A stretch of 64,000 bases of DNA from Brachyspira alvinipulli ATCC 51933 (GTDB lineage: Bacteria > Spirochaetota > Brachyspiria > Brachyspirales > Brachyspiraceae), in contig NZ_KI912403.1 in NCBI RefSeq assembly GCF_000518245.1, forward strand, positions 444,600 to 508,599, given 5' to 3'. Both the position numbers and the translations under genes were made by a program. The notes under the pieces were generated by a model, which did not search any database, was not told the origin of the DNA, and saw nothing but the letters and a program-made list of their open reading frames with translations. This document shows positions 9,886 through 56,926 of the stretch, piece by piece. Each line of letters opens with the position of its first letter. Positions within the stretch are counted from its first letter, which is position 1.

Positions 9886-10636
9886 TTAAGCTTTAGGACC
9901 AAATTTGAAGCCTAACTGTAAGCCTACATCAAAGCTTGAAAATCCCATACTATCAAATATTCCAGTTCCTGCAACAGATTCAAAAAATTTATCTGACATA
10001 TTCATACCAAAATCATATCCTGCATAAAGTCCCACATTCATAGCCATATTATCAGTAAAGAATATTGAATAATCGAAAGTAGCCTTAATATATCCTATAA
10101 CAGGAGTTTTAAAATTATCTTTTATATCTGATAAATTCGCTTTTACTGGAGAACCTATTATATTTTTACCATCATATTTTTGATACATTTTTCCAGATAA
10201 AGGTATTTTAACTCCTCCTCATATTCCTATAGCAAAAGCACCTATATTGAATTTAGGAAGAAGTCCAATCTGTATGCTTTCAAATGTAAAAGACTGTGTT
10301 ATTTTTTTTATCGCTTGCAAGTACAAAAGCATAAGAATCATGGCTGTATCCTATTTCACCTAAAACACTAATTCCAAAACCTTCTTTTACTTGGAACATA
10401 TAGCCTAACTGGGCTGTAACTCCTATATCGAAACCTACCCCGCTATTCTGTTTAGTAGATGGTTCAATATATTGTTTTATTGATTCTCCATATTTTGATA
10501 ATTTGTAATTGTGAAAACCTACACTCAATCCTATAGGCACATTAACTATAGCCTCAAATCCGCTTGCTGCAAATGCTGATACACTAAATACTGATATCAT
10601 CATCAATGTTAAAATAATTTTTTTAATGCTTCTCAT
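9886..10636 (-). pseudogene. Outer-membrane beta-barrel protein, broken by frameshift and stop
   Basis: Two ORFs (10280-10636, 118 residues with a signal peptide; 9886-10188, 100 residues) match successive parts of the intact paralogue at 54647-55405. The first lesion is a frameshift in the eight-base A tract of the coding strand (T8 at 10302-10309). After it the homologous frame resumes as TFESIQIGLLPKFNIGAFAIGI. The second is an in-frame TGA at 10219-10221, exactly where the paralogues have a Gly codon in GIGGGVKIP. With both repaired the protein would be about 250 residues ending DVGLQLGFKFGP. The A8 tract alone could suggest phase variation, but the nonsense codon argues for decay. The Shine-Dalgarno sequence AGGAG and the promoter are intact. 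Confidence 0.9.
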
Positions 10637-10728
10637 AAAGAAACTCCTAATAATGATTTTTTATTTATAACAAAATGAATATTGCTATTCAATAAGTTAT
10701 CAGGTAGGCTTGAAATACAAATAAATAA

Positions 10729-10763
10729 GTGATGCAAATATTTTAAAATAATATTTGCAACAC
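10729..10763 (-). ncRNA. Leader hairpin shared with the 55.4-kb outer-membrane gene
   Basis: In the minus-strand transcript, GTGTTGCAAATATT pairs with AATATTTGCATCAC (13 of 14 pairs, 7-base loop). It lies about 126 bases after the predicted start site and 92 bases before the ATG. The 19 bases 5' of the stem are nearly the same as at the second copy (55725-55758). Confidence 0.55.
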
Positions 10764-10895
10764 CAAAAGAAATATTGATTTTAATTAAAATATTATAAAT
10801 TGATATTATATAAAATTTAACAGAAAAAAGTTTTATTGAATTATTTAGAATGTGTGCTGTGTGCTGTGTTAAAAACTAAAGTACTCATAACCAGT

Positions 10896-10924
10896 ATGAT
10901 ATACTCATTTAATTTTTATGTCAA
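10896..10924 (-). promoter_or_regulatory. Promoter of the broken outer-membrane gene
   Basis: Minus strand TTGACA (10919-10924), 17-base spacer, TATCAT (10896-10901). It predicts an untranslated leader of about 250 bases. Confidence 0.65.
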
Positions 10925-49723: not shown

Positions 49724-49758
49724 AAAAACGACAGGTTCATAACTGACCTGCCGTTTTT
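49724..49758 (-). terminator. Terminator of the secreted PepSY-like gene
   Basis: Arms AAAAACGACAGGT and ACCTGCCGTTTTT (one mismatch); the T run follows on the minus strand. Confidence 0.85.
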
Positions 49759-50371: not shown

Positions 50372-51403
50372 TTAATTATCAAGATTTGATTGTATTATTT
50401 TTGCAATAAGTTTTTTTAAGTCTTTAGAAATAGGAGCTTTTACTTTAACATATTCATTTGTAATAGGATGAGGAAATTCCAGCTTGTATGCATGCAAAGC
50501 CTGTCTATTAAAAAAACCCTCTGGAATAATATTCTTTTCTATAAAATCATCAAAAACTTTAGGCCCATATTTTCCATATATTTTATCACCGACCATAAAA
50601 AGTCCTTTAGAATACAGATGAACTCTAATCTGATGCATTCTTCCTGTATAAAGCCTAGCCATAACAATAGCATAATCCCCTATTCTTTTTACTGTTTTAA
50701 ATGCTGTTTTTGAATATTTAGCACCTTCTAATTTTTCTTTGTGTAATGTTTGAAATCTCCTATAATATTTATGTCCGCTTTCAAGCATATATCCTTCTAC
50801 AGTAAATTTATCTTCAATATTTTCTGCATTTTCTACTATGGCAATATAAGTTTTTTTAATATGTCTTTTTTTATTATCATTAAATATTTTTCTTCCAGCA
50901 ATCATAGCACAAAATTTAGAAGCTACATTAGAACTTCTTGAAAGCACAACACATCCGCTAGTTTCCCTATCAATTCTATTAAGCATATTTATATCGCATC
51001 CAAGCATTTGCTTTACAATAGTGTGCAATGTATTATGATAATATTTTCCAGAAGGTATAACAGGTAAATTGGCAGGTTTATTAGCTATTATCAAATCTCC
51101 ATCATCGTATATTATAGTTACATCTCTATCAACTTCAGGCTCTTTCATCCCTATAATGTGATAGGTTATTTCATCACCCTTTTTAACGGTTCTAGTATAC
51201 TTTATTCTTTGTCCATTAAGTAATACGAGACCTTGTCCTATTAAATCCTGCCACTTGTTTCTAGAATAATAAGAAAATCTATCTCCCATATATTTATCAA
51301 GTCTAATATTATCAATATCTTCTTCTATACGGCATTTCCTTATAACAGATTTTTGATACATCTCTTCAATATTTGAATGCAATTTATTCTTAGCTTTTTT
51401 CAT
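50372..51403 (-). CDS. RluA-family 23S rRNA/tRNA pseudouridine synthase
   Basis: 343 residues. An S4 RNA-binding domain covers about 25-90 (NIRLDKYMGDRF, LVLLNGQRIKYTRTVKKGDE). The synthase domain follows with DLIIANKPANLPVIPSGKYY, the catalytic-Asp motif MLNRIDRETSGCVVLSR and RLYTGRMHQIRVHLYSKGLF. Compared with the usual HRLDRDTSG the motif has N and I in place of H and L, but the Asp is kept. The RNA target is not certain (RluD- or RluC-like). The ATG has no Shine-Dalgarno, and the -10 box ends 8 bases upstream, so the mRNA may be leaderless. Confidence 0.92.
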   Translation of the reverse strand: MKKAKNKLHSNIEEMYQKSVIRKCRIEEDIDNIRLDKYMGDRFSYYSRNKWQDLIGQGLVLLNGQRIKYTRTVKKGDEITYHIIGMKEPEVDRDVTIIYDDGDLIIANKPANLPVIPSGKYYHNTLHTIVKQMLGCDINMLNRIDRETSGCVVLSRSSNVASKFCAMIAGRKIFNDNKKRHIKKTYIAIVENAENIEDKFTVEGYMLESGHKYYRRFQTLHKEKLEGAKYSKTAFKTVKRIGDYAIVMARLYTGRMHQIRVHLYSKGLFMVGDKIYGKYGPKVFDDFIEKNIIPEGFFNRQALHAYKLEFPHPITNEYVKVKAPISKDLKKLIAKIIQSNLDN

Positions 51404-51439: not shown

Positions 51440-51449
51440 AAAATAATCA

Positions 51450-51476
51450 TGGGCAGAAGAATTAATCCCCTGCCCA
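51450..51476 (-). terminator. Terminator after glgC
   Basis: Arms TGGGCAG and CTGCCCA, followed on the minus strand by ATTATTTTTTGACA. The T run merges into the -35 box of the next gene. Confidence 0.65.
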
Positions 51477-51503
51477 CAACAAACAAACTTACCAACAAAC
51501 TAA

Positions 51504-52790
51504 TTAGATTACAGTCCCACTTTTAATTACTGTATTTTTAGGAAGTATTACTATACCATCCCTAATACAATAAAATTCACTATCCTGATGTTGTATTTTT
51601 TTCTTATTTGTGATAATAACATCATTACCTATTCTTACATTCTTATCTATTATAACGTTTTTTAGTGTACATTTCTTACCGATTCCTATTTTAGGAAGAT
51701 GCTTAACATTTAGTCTTTCAATATCATCACTGTCTTCATAATAGTCGCTACCCATCATAATAACCCTTTCTAAAGTAGATCCGGTTTGAACAACAGAACG
51801 TACACCTATAACACATTCTTTTATAGTAGCATTTTCAATCCTACATCCGTCAGCTATTATACTTGAAGTTACTGTAGCTTTTTCAACTTTAGAAGGAGAC
51901 AAATAACGTACATGTGTATATATAGGAGCATTTTCATCATAAAAATCAAAAGGAGGATTCTTACTTCCAAAAGATATATTAGCTTCAAAATATGCTTTAA
52001 TAGTTCCTACATCTTCCCAATATCCCTGAAAAGCATAACTGAACACTTTATATTTCTTTATTGCTTCTGGTATAATATCTTTACCAAAATCTATCATAGA
52101 ACCATCAGATAAAATTTCTTTAAGTACATTACGTCTAAATACATATATACCCATAGAAGCAAGATATTCTTTTTTTGGATCTTCTATGTTGAACATTTTC
52201 TTTTGATCCTCTGTTAATTTCAAAGAATTAAGTACTTCATCTTCCTTAGGCTTTTCATGGAAGTTAGTAATTTGTCCTCTTTTATTAACAAGCATTACTC
52301 CGAAACCCTTAGCATCTTCTCTAACAACAGGAACAGTTCCAACAATTATATCTGCTCCCGTCTCAAGCATATGCTGAAGCATTACATTATAATTCATACG
52401 GTAAACTTGGTCTCCTGAAAGTATCACAACATTGTTAACAAATTCACTATCAAAATGTTCCCAATTTTTTCTAACCGCATCAGCAGTACCTTGATACCAA
52501 TCTATATTAGTATCTGTCTGTTCTGCAGCAAGTATACTTACATGCCCGCCTGAAAAGTTATCAAATCTATAAGCATTATATATATGATTATTTAAAGAAG
52601 CACTATTAAATTGTGTAATAACATATATGTTTCTGAACCCACTATTAATACAATTAGATACTGGTATATCTATCATTCTATATTGACCACCTAAAGATAC
52701 AGCAGGTTTGGAACGTGCTTTTACTAATGGATAAAGCCTTGTTCCTCTTCCTCCTCCGAGTATCAAAGCAACAGTATTAAATGATCTCAT
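51504..52790 (-). CDS. glgC: Glucose-1-phosphate adenylyltransferase
   Basis: 428 residues from the ATG at 52790, with TTGGAG 7 bases before it. The nucleotidyltransferase domain has GGGRGTRLYPLVKARSKPAV and YRMIDIPVSNCINSGF. GTADAVRKN and the Asp-containing LSGDQVYRMNY follow, and the C-terminal left-handed beta-helix carries repeated IEN/IGNDV hexads. It makes ADP-glucose, the donor for glycogen synthesis, in the cytoplasm. It has a promoter (52838-52866) and a terminator and is a single gene. HAD phosphatases upstream may or may not act on sugar phosphates. Confidence 0.95.
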   Translation of the reverse strand: MRSFNTVALILGGGRGTRLYPLVKARSKPAVSLGGQYRMIDIPVSNCINSGFRNIYVITQFNSASLNNHIYNAYRFDNFSGGHVSILAAEQTDTNIDWYQGTADAVRKNWEHFDSEFVNNVVILSGDQVYRMNYNVMLQHMLETGADIIVGTVPVVREDAKGFGVMLVNKRGQITNFHEKPKEDEVLNSLKLTEDQKKMFNIEDPKKEYLASMGIYVFRRNVLKEILSDGSMIDFGKDIIPEAIKKYKVFSYAFQGYWEDVGTIKAYFEANISFGSKNPPFDFYDENAPIYTHVRYLSPSKVEKATVTSSIIADGCRIENATIKECVIGVRSVVQTGSTLERVIMMGSDYYEDSDDIERLNVKHLPKIGIGKKCTLKNVIIDKNVRIGNDVIITNKKKIQHQDSEFYCIRDGIVILPKNTVIKSGTVI

Positions 52791-52837
52791 AAAAAACTCC
52801 AATAAATTTTTCTAAAAACTAAATGATTATATTATTA

Positions 52838-54646: not shown

Positions 54647-55405
54647 TTACTTTGTACTAGGTCCGAATTTAAATCCTAACTGCAAACCTATATCAAAACT
54701 TGAATAAGAAACTTCATCAACTATTAATCTAGTACCAGTCATTACTGCATTATTAATAGTATATAAATTAGGTTCTACACCAAAATCATATCCTAAATAT
54801 AGACCTATATTAAATGCCAATTTTTCAGTAAAGAAAATAGAATAATCAAAAGTAAATTTCAAATATGGTATTATTGTAGATCTAAAATTTCTTTTCATAT
54901 AATCAGAATCCATCTTTGTATCAGTTGTAATAGAACCTGCTTTGTAATGTAAATTTCCAGATACAGGAATTTTAACACCTCCGCCAATACCTACAGCAAA
55001 ATTATAAAAATTAAATTTAGGAAGCAATCCTAGCTGTATACTGTCAAAGGAATATGTTTCAGATATATTTTTACTAAGTTTATTAATATAAGAATAAGTA
55101 TCATGGCTGTAACCTATTTCACCGAGAACACTCAATCCAAGATTACCTGTAAACTTAAACATATAACCAAGTTGTGCAGTTACTCCTATATCAAAACCTA
55201 TTCCGCTATTTCTTCCAACTACATTACGTATACCACCATTCAAAATTATATCCTGATTCTCACCATAATCAGTTAAATCATAATCATAAATACCAACACT
55301 CATTCCAATAGGAACATTTAATATAAATTCAAATCCTCCGTCAATAGCAAAAGATGTTGCACTTATAGCTACAAAGGCAAAAATATAAAGTATTATTTTT
55401 CTCAT
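54647..55405 (-). CDS. Outer-membrane beta-barrel family protein (intact paralogue)
   Basis: 252 residues with a signal peptide (about 1-20, ending SFAIDGG). It reads as a small barrel: alternating strands, GEIGYSHDTYSY, GIGGGVKIPVSGNLHYK, TFDYSIFFTEKLAFNIGLYL, and a C-terminal SFDIGLQLGFKFGP. The broken gene at 9886-10636 is its closest relative in the window, and those at 13153 and 14103 are more distant. The function is unknown; surface exposure is plausible. Its ATG is preceded by GGAG. The leader is exceptionally long (about 480 bases) and carries the conserved hairpin (55725-55758). Confidence 0.82.
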   Translation of the reverse strand: MRKIILYIFAFVAISATSFAIDGGFEFILNVPIGMSVGIYDYDLTDYGENQDIILNGGIRNVVGRNSGIGFDIGVTAQLGYMFKFTGNLGLSVLGEIGYSHDTYSYINKLSKNISETYSFDSIQLGLLPKFNFYNFAVGIGGGVKIPVSGNLHYKAGSITTDTKMDSDYMKRNFRSTIIPYLKFTFDYSIFFTEKLAFNIGLYLGYDFGVEPNLYTINNAVMTGTRLIVDEVSYSSFDIGLQLGFKFGPSTK

Positions 55406-55724: not shown

Positions 55725-55758
55725 GTGCTGCAAATATAAAAAACAATACCCGCAGCAC
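55725..55758 (-). ncRNA. Leader hairpin, second copy
   Basis: In the minus-strand transcript GTGCTGCGGGTAT pairs with ATATTTGCAGCAC: 13 pairs, three of them G-U. On the plus strand the same positions would be A-C mismatches, so the structure favours RNA made from the minus strand. It lies about 128 bases after the predicted start site. Confidence 0.6.
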
Positions 55759-55892
55759 AAAAAGAAACACTGATTTTATCAAAAGACATAGTAAGGTTCT
55801 ATATTTAATTAATAATATAGATATAGAAAAATTATAGACTGATAAATAATTAACAGCATAACTCCTATACTATTATAACTATAATTATGATT

Positions 55893-55920
55893 ACTATATA
55901 ATAAATTTTAAAAATGTCAA
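55893..55920 (-). promoter_or_regulatory. Promoter of the 55405 outer-membrane gene
   Basis: Minus strand TTGACA (55915-55920), 16-base spacer, TATAGT (55893-55898). Confidence 0.6.
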
Positions 55921-56092: not shown

Positions 56093-56926
56093 ATGAAAAA
56101 AGGTAAAAAATCAGAAATAAAAAAACTGAGAGTCAAAACACATAAAAACCTTTTATTAGTTAAAGGAAACACTGAAGAAGATAACAAAAAATTAGAAATA
56201 ATAAGAGATATATTAATAAATGATGAAAATAAAGATAAAGCAGATTTACATAATTATTTTTTAGAAAATAAAGGAGAAGCTATTTTTAAACATCTGCCAT
56301 TCTTTGATATATATGAAAGGCATTTTTCTAAATATAGAGGAAAAGATATTAATATGATGGAAATTGGTGTAGGAAGCGGCGGTGCTGTAAAGATGTGGCG
56401 AGAATATTTTAGAAACAACAACAGCAAAGCTAATGTCAATATATATGCTATAGATAAGAATCCTAAATGTAAGCAATTTGAACAAGATAATATAAAAATA
56501 TTTATAGGCTCTCAAGATGACAGAGATTTTTTAAAAGAAGTAAAAAACCAAATTCCAAAATTAGATATATTAATAGATGACGGCGGACATAGAATGAATC
56601 AGCAGATAATTACATTTGAAGAGATGTATGAGCATATAAAAGATGACGGTATTTATTTATGCGAAGATGTTTATACTTCATATTGGCCTAATTTCGGAGG
56701 AGGATATAAAAATCCTAATTCATATATAGAATACACAAAAAATTTAATAGATTATCTTAATGCATATTGGTCTACAGTAGAAGATGATCTGTATCCTAAT
56801 AGTTTTACTGACAGCACCTACTCTATTCACTATTATGACGGAATTGTAGTTATAGAAAAAAGAAAAAGAGATACAAGGTACAATGATATATGTCAGCAGG
56901 CTATTATAGGTAAAACTAAAGAATAA
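56093..56926 (+). CDS. Class I SAM-dependent methyltransferase
   Basis: 277 residues. The Rossmann motif I is MMEIGVGSGGAVKMW near 100, with the ribose-binding acid in YAIDKNP, then LDILIDDGGHRMNQQIITFE and GIYLCEDVYTSYWPNFGGGY. The DDGGH segment occurs in the macrocin/mycinamicin O-methyltransferase and CmcI-type group, where the acidic residues hold a metal; these methylate sugars or similar hydroxyls. A role in surface glycans is possible but the substrate is open. The first 60 residues are lysine-rich. Single gene, converging with znuB. Confidence 0.85.
   Translation: MKKGKKSEIKKLRVKTHKNLLLVKGNTEEDNKKLEIIRDILINDENKDKADLHNYFLENKGEAIFKHLPFFDIYERHFSKYRGKDINMMEIGVGSGGAVKMWREYFRNNNSKANVNIYAIDKNPKCKQFEQDNIKIFIGSQDDRDFLKEVKNQIPKLDILIDDGGHRMNQQIITFEEMYEHIKDDGIYLCEDVYTSYWPNFGGGYKNPNSYIEYTKNLIDYLNAYWSTVEDDLYPNSFTDSTYSIHYYDGIVVIEKRKRDTRYNDICQQAIIGKTKE

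Follow-up and report, generated by a model that had tools for sequence, protein, structure and literature searches.

A 13-bp stem-loop on the minus strand at positions 55725-55758 of the window, by which is meant the whole 64,000-nt stretch of Brachyspira DNA analysed here, has been preserved in four Brachyspira species through changes that are effective in the sense RNA alone. Such a pattern suggests a small RNA element with a regulatory role, most probably of an unremarkable type. The reading that we favour on balance is that of a cis-acting stem-loop derived from the leader of an outer-membrane protein gene (gene B), acting as a weak attenuator or a leader stabiliser and forming, at the window locus, a short upstream unit before a related gene (gene A). 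If this is correct, a structured RNA element would control surface-protein expression in Brachyspira, an intestinal spirochaete.

Structure of the stem-loop

The following features were recognised in the predicted transcript:

55725..55758, minus strand: stem-loop, with the 5' arm at 55758-55746, an 8-nt loop at 55745-55738 and the 3' arm at 55737-55725
55797..55828, minus strand: second helix, A+U-rich (TTCTATAT/ATATAGAA), found by alignment folding in the same predicted transcript as the main stem

Read on the minus strand, 55758-55725 is GTGCTGCGGGTAT-TGTTTTTT-ATATTTGCAGCAC and forms 13 contiguous pairs, three of them G-U (14 pairs if 55759/55724 is counted). The folding energy of the sense RNA is -18.9 kcal/mol (z -4.3). 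On the plus strand it is -11.7 kcal/mol, and the inner pairs open there. Each of the three G-U pairs is replaced on that strand by an A-C mismatch, exactly as the initial annotation had described. Strong folding with the same sense-strand asymmetry was found in the window copy and in those of genomes G020 and G018, and the stem formed with a probability of at least 0.91 in the leaders folded. In the second helix one C-G pair is replaced by U-G in G018; the support for this helix is weaker than that for the main stem.

Strong stems, defined by at least 13 contiguous pairs, at least 5 G-C pairs and a loop of at most 10 nt, occur at three places in the 64-kb window, all on the minus strand (55725-55758, 51446-51480 and 49724-49758), and at none in 40 dinucleotide shuffles. 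The stem at 51446-51480 contains five G-U pairs and is located between the genes at 50372-51403 and 51504-52802. That at 49724-49758 (AAAAACGGCAGGTCAG...CCTGTCGTTTTT), between 49668 and 49773, has the look of an ordinary terminator.

Genes adjoining the two copies in the window

54647..55405, minus strand: gene A, outer-membrane beta-barrel-like, 252 aa, downstream of the stem
56093-56926, plus strand: methyltransferase-like gene, divergent from gene A
9886..10636, minus strand: gene B, a paralogous outer-membrane gene, here a pseudogene with a frameshift and one in-frame TGA
10729..10763, minus strand: first copy of the stem-loop (w1), with one U-U mismatch, in the leader of gene B

The hairpin sits in the 687-nt gap separating gene A from the divergent methyltransferase-like gene, 319 nt from the gene A start codon. 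Gene A gave only sub-threshold matches to DUF5723 and TDE1717; the match to the TDE1717 family (NCBIfam) extends over the full length with 20.6 bits and E 3.4e-4, below the curated cut-off of 135 bits. The family to which genes A and B belong is large, with 31 matches in this genome, and gene B is open in G006, G018 and G020. A conserved promoter-like block of gene A's own lies just upstream of gene A, and the core TGTTAAA of the second conserved block, nearer to the start codon than the stem, was present in most of the gene A homologues inspected (L039-L052). Since this second block is nearer to gene A, the stem need not be on the main transcript of gene A; the promoter-like site of the hairpin's own and the drop of conservation past the stem add to the doubt whether the hairpin belongs to the mRNA leader of the gene at 54647-55405.

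The first copy was located at 10763-10729 of the minus strand (GTGTTGCAAATAT...ATATTTGCATCAC), and with this placement the differences listed in the initial annotation, three A-U pairs against G-U and one U-U against C-G, are exact. The two copies belong to separate loci 45 kb apart and do not form a pair of hairpins in a single leader. The direction of change given earlier holds for the three G-U pairs, which did arise at the gene A locus, because most gene B copies have A-U at pairs 8-10. It is reversed for pair 4, where C-G is common to the intact copies of the other species and so is ancestral. The U-U mismatch arose by decay in w1, the sole copy before a broken gene, in keeping with relaxed selection there.

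Distribution and history of the element

Gene A homologues were collected from 17 other Brachyspira genomes and their leaders were read (the G012 contig extends upstream of the gene for only 40 nt). When the entire intergenic sequence served as a DNA query against the genus, many A+T-rich chance matches were returned, and only the top hits were used. Seven copies then served as input to a covariance model, with which 26 Brachyspira genomes were searched. The seven were recovered at E <= 2e-11, values that are theirs by construction as the model was built from them, and the next match had an E-value of 0.008; the search of the 26 genomes yielded no further strong copies. The seven copies are from four species and every one is upstream of gene A or gene B: the stem precedes gene A in the window, G020 and G018, an open gene B in G006, G018 and G020, and the broken gene B in the window (w1). 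In G006 the order is stem, open gene B and then gene A directly. A leader element common to the whole genus was rejected, as the gene A orthologues of G025, G008, G024, G022, G014, G017, G021, G009, G007 and G015 have no stem upstream.

The gene A tree places G000, G020 and G018 together and G006 with G025, G008, G024 and G022, and the last four are without the element. The simplest account would be an ancestral order of promoter, stem, gene B and gene A, from which gene B was lost between the stem and gene A in the window lineage; by the same account the cassette would have been lost in the G025 group. Transfer may be an alternative history, because the small gene B tree departs from the gene A tree.

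Promoter-like sites and conservation upstream of the stem

55893..55920, minus strand: sigma-70-type promoter-like site, TTGACA-16-TATAGT, 11 of 12 matches and the best in the region, ending 134 nt upstream of the stem
10896..10924, minus strand: promoter-like site, TTGACA-17-TATCAT, 11 of 12 matches, upstream of w1

In five scanned copies a site of the TTGACA/TATAAT type precedes the stem, with 11/12 matches at the window gene A locus, w1, G020 and G006 and 12/12 in G018; those of G020 and G018 are at the position equivalent to that in the window. Promoter-like sites are frequent by chance in this A+T-rich DNA; those given here are the best-scoring ones and recur at a like relative place. For gene B of G018, TTGACA-17-TATAAT was read by eye close to the beginning of contig C1. 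This contig apparently continues C34 across a repeat, the join having been inferred. A comparison of the window with G020 gives mostly 92-100% identity from promoter to stem. Over the 50 nt past the stem the identity is 36-44%, and it then recovers toward gene A.

Strand-specific preservation of pairing

Each of the seven copies was scored at the 13 pairs, giving 91 cells. Standard pairs in the sense RNA fill 88 of these (96.7%); 12 cells are paired in the sense strand only, as G-U, and none in the antisense strand only. The three non-pairing cells are all U-U; one is in w1, and the others, in G018b and G020b, are close to the loop. At the window locus in three species, with the gene B copies as outgroup, six stem substitutions were counted (5'-arm positions 4, 7, 8, 9, and 10 twice), and sense pairing was kept in six of six. 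The local substitution spectrum was taken from the gene A region of the window and G020 (62 transitions, 38 transversions), and under it a random stem substitution retains sense pairing with a probability of 0.36. Six compatible changes out of six therefore have P about 0.002, and the 9/11 across all copies also P about 0.002; both counts come from a hand-made parsimony reconstruction and the test was devised after the data were seen. A shuffle control added no independent support. No change was seen in the 3' arm at the window locus in the three species, and the chance that all six compatible changes would be in the 5' arm (P about 0.007) suggests that the 3' arm may be under an extra constraint.

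None of the main-stem pairs in the seven copies showed a two-sided (compensatory) change, so that the pattern is one of wobble compensation and not of full covariation. It had been claimed from the two window copies that the compensation was strand-specific, as selection on an RNA structure would leave it, and a covariation test on homologous Brachyspira leaders had been proposed. The homologues bear this out in part. The changes are indeed strand-specific with pairing kept, in 96.7% of the cells; they consist of one-sided wobble only, amount to some 8-9 independent events, and one of the two copies first compared is that of a pseudogene. A strand-specific wobble signal spotted by eye in two paralogues can thus survive the addition of homologues.

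These counts bear on the view that the hairpin is a functionless fossil of the gene B leader at the window locus, its wobble-compatible changes being due to luck and transition bias. Gene B is absent there, the events are few and a random stem substitution would be compatible with sense pairing in about 36% of cases anyway; the six compatible changes out of six nevertheless speak against a fossil, as does the retention of promoter and stem in three species although the adjacent spacer diverges. We consider this view improbable, and somewhat more so than that of a stand-alone RNA discussed below.

The pairing data are harder still to reconcile with a DNA operator, that is, an inverted repeat for a dimeric regulator. 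In the window copy the outer arms GTGCTGC/GCAGCAC do form a perfect DNA inverted repeat. Both G020 (GTGTTGC) and G018 (GTGCTGT) lack this symmetry and retain the RNA pairing by way of G-U, and an operator is accordingly very unlikely. A small coding region across the stem (frame MSFDKISVSFCAAGIVFYICSTL*), which is open with an ATG on the minus strand in the window, was rejected as the least credible of all, since the frame is interrupted by a one-base insertion in G020 and has no ATG in G018.

Tail of the stem and possible leader pairing of gene B

10646..10704, minus strand: possible gene B leader pairing, CCTGATAA (10704-10697) with TTATTAGG (10653-10646), which would mask the Shine-Dalgarno sequence

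The tail that follows the stem is U-rich and interrupted in most copies; that of the window is CTTTAATTTT. A terminator scan at the stem was positive in the window and G006 and negative in G020a, G018a, G018b and w1 (six copies scanned). Clear terminators were found after genes A and B, with uninterrupted T runs unlike the tail of the stem. In the gene B leaders the CCTGATAA/TTATTAGG pairing is possible in most copies. Folding z-scores were weak (-0.4 to -2.1), and covariation gives no support because the segment is almost invariant across the four species. The predicted pairing hints that translational control might operate besides, through the Shine-Dalgarno sequence in gene B leaders.

Proposed function

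The hairpin would have originated in the 5' leader of the Brachyspira outer-membrane beta-barrel gene B. The RNA is predicted to begin at the conserved upstream TTGACA/TATAAT promoter, with the stem folding as polymerase passes. Most likely the stem either lowers or tunes downstream expression, as a weak intrinsic attenuator made up of the stem and its interrupted U-rich tail, or shields the leader from decay. At the window locus, from which gene B has apparently been lost, the promoter and stem-loop would persist as a short upstream transcription unit before gene A, where selection for pairing would continue.

In the main rival reading, the hairpin would close the 3' end of a short, sRNA-like transcript of about 170 nt that stands alone and is detached from the gene A mRNA. 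Such an RNA would account for a near-consensus promoter of its own, for the end of conservation right past the stem, for the U-rich tail of the window copy and for the separate conserved block nearer the gene A start codon. Against it, the tail of G018a is poor, the upstream portion of the RNA at the gene A loci is not conserved at those of gene B, and at the gene B loci the stem is in mid-leader. A point against the favoured reading is that the drop of conservation past the stem could be a trace left by the deletion of gene B and not a functional RNA end. The cis-acting leader stem is favoured, with the stand-alone RNA, a distinctly less probable reading, as its chief competitor.

Comparison with known leader RNAs

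Stem-loops occur in the 5' leaders of outer-membrane-protein mRNAs, an example being the stabilising stem-loop of the enterobacterial ompA leader. Like these, the Brachyspira element is a strong stem-loop in an untranslated leader, its structure kept more than its sequence; it differs in that the stem is not 5'-terminal, the predicted RNA start being considerably more than 100 nt away, and no family relation is expected. Intrinsic-terminator attenuators share with it a stable stem with a U-rich stretch behind it, placed between promoter and gene; in Brachyspira, by contrast, the U tail is interrupted, the terminator scan was positive in two of the six copies and no antiterminator has been demonstrated.

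The whole window gave no match to Rfam (release 15) at the gathering threshold; the best sub-threshold match, the S15-Flavobacteria leader (E 3.9, 20.9 bits versus a gathering score of 46.5), was at chance level. No description of a regulatory leader RNA of Brachyspira was found in the open-access literature. We regard the element as real and modest, one more instance of a type already well known, and in no curated Rfam family.

The CAGCACA repeat

In G018 an array of a 7-base repeat, CAGCACA, separates the promoter from the stem in the leader of the open gene B, with about ten copies at each of the two contig ends (start of C1, end of C34). In the window about two and a half copies are present at 10851-10869. 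The array is likely a slippage-variable tract. Its core CAGCAC is complementary to GTGCTG of the 5' arm, and when the natural RNA of G018 gene B was folded as ending before the 3' arm, the 5' arm paired upstream with a probability of 0.86. That the number of copies tunes stem formation, which would make this a slippage-tuned RNA attenuator of the outer-membrane protein, is a highly speculative suggestion drawn from the folding model. CAGCACA was also found in another open frame, among its first few codons, at G009:C1:559992-560025 (ATGAAAAAACCACACAGCAC...), where a change in copy number would shift the frame, making phase variation possible.
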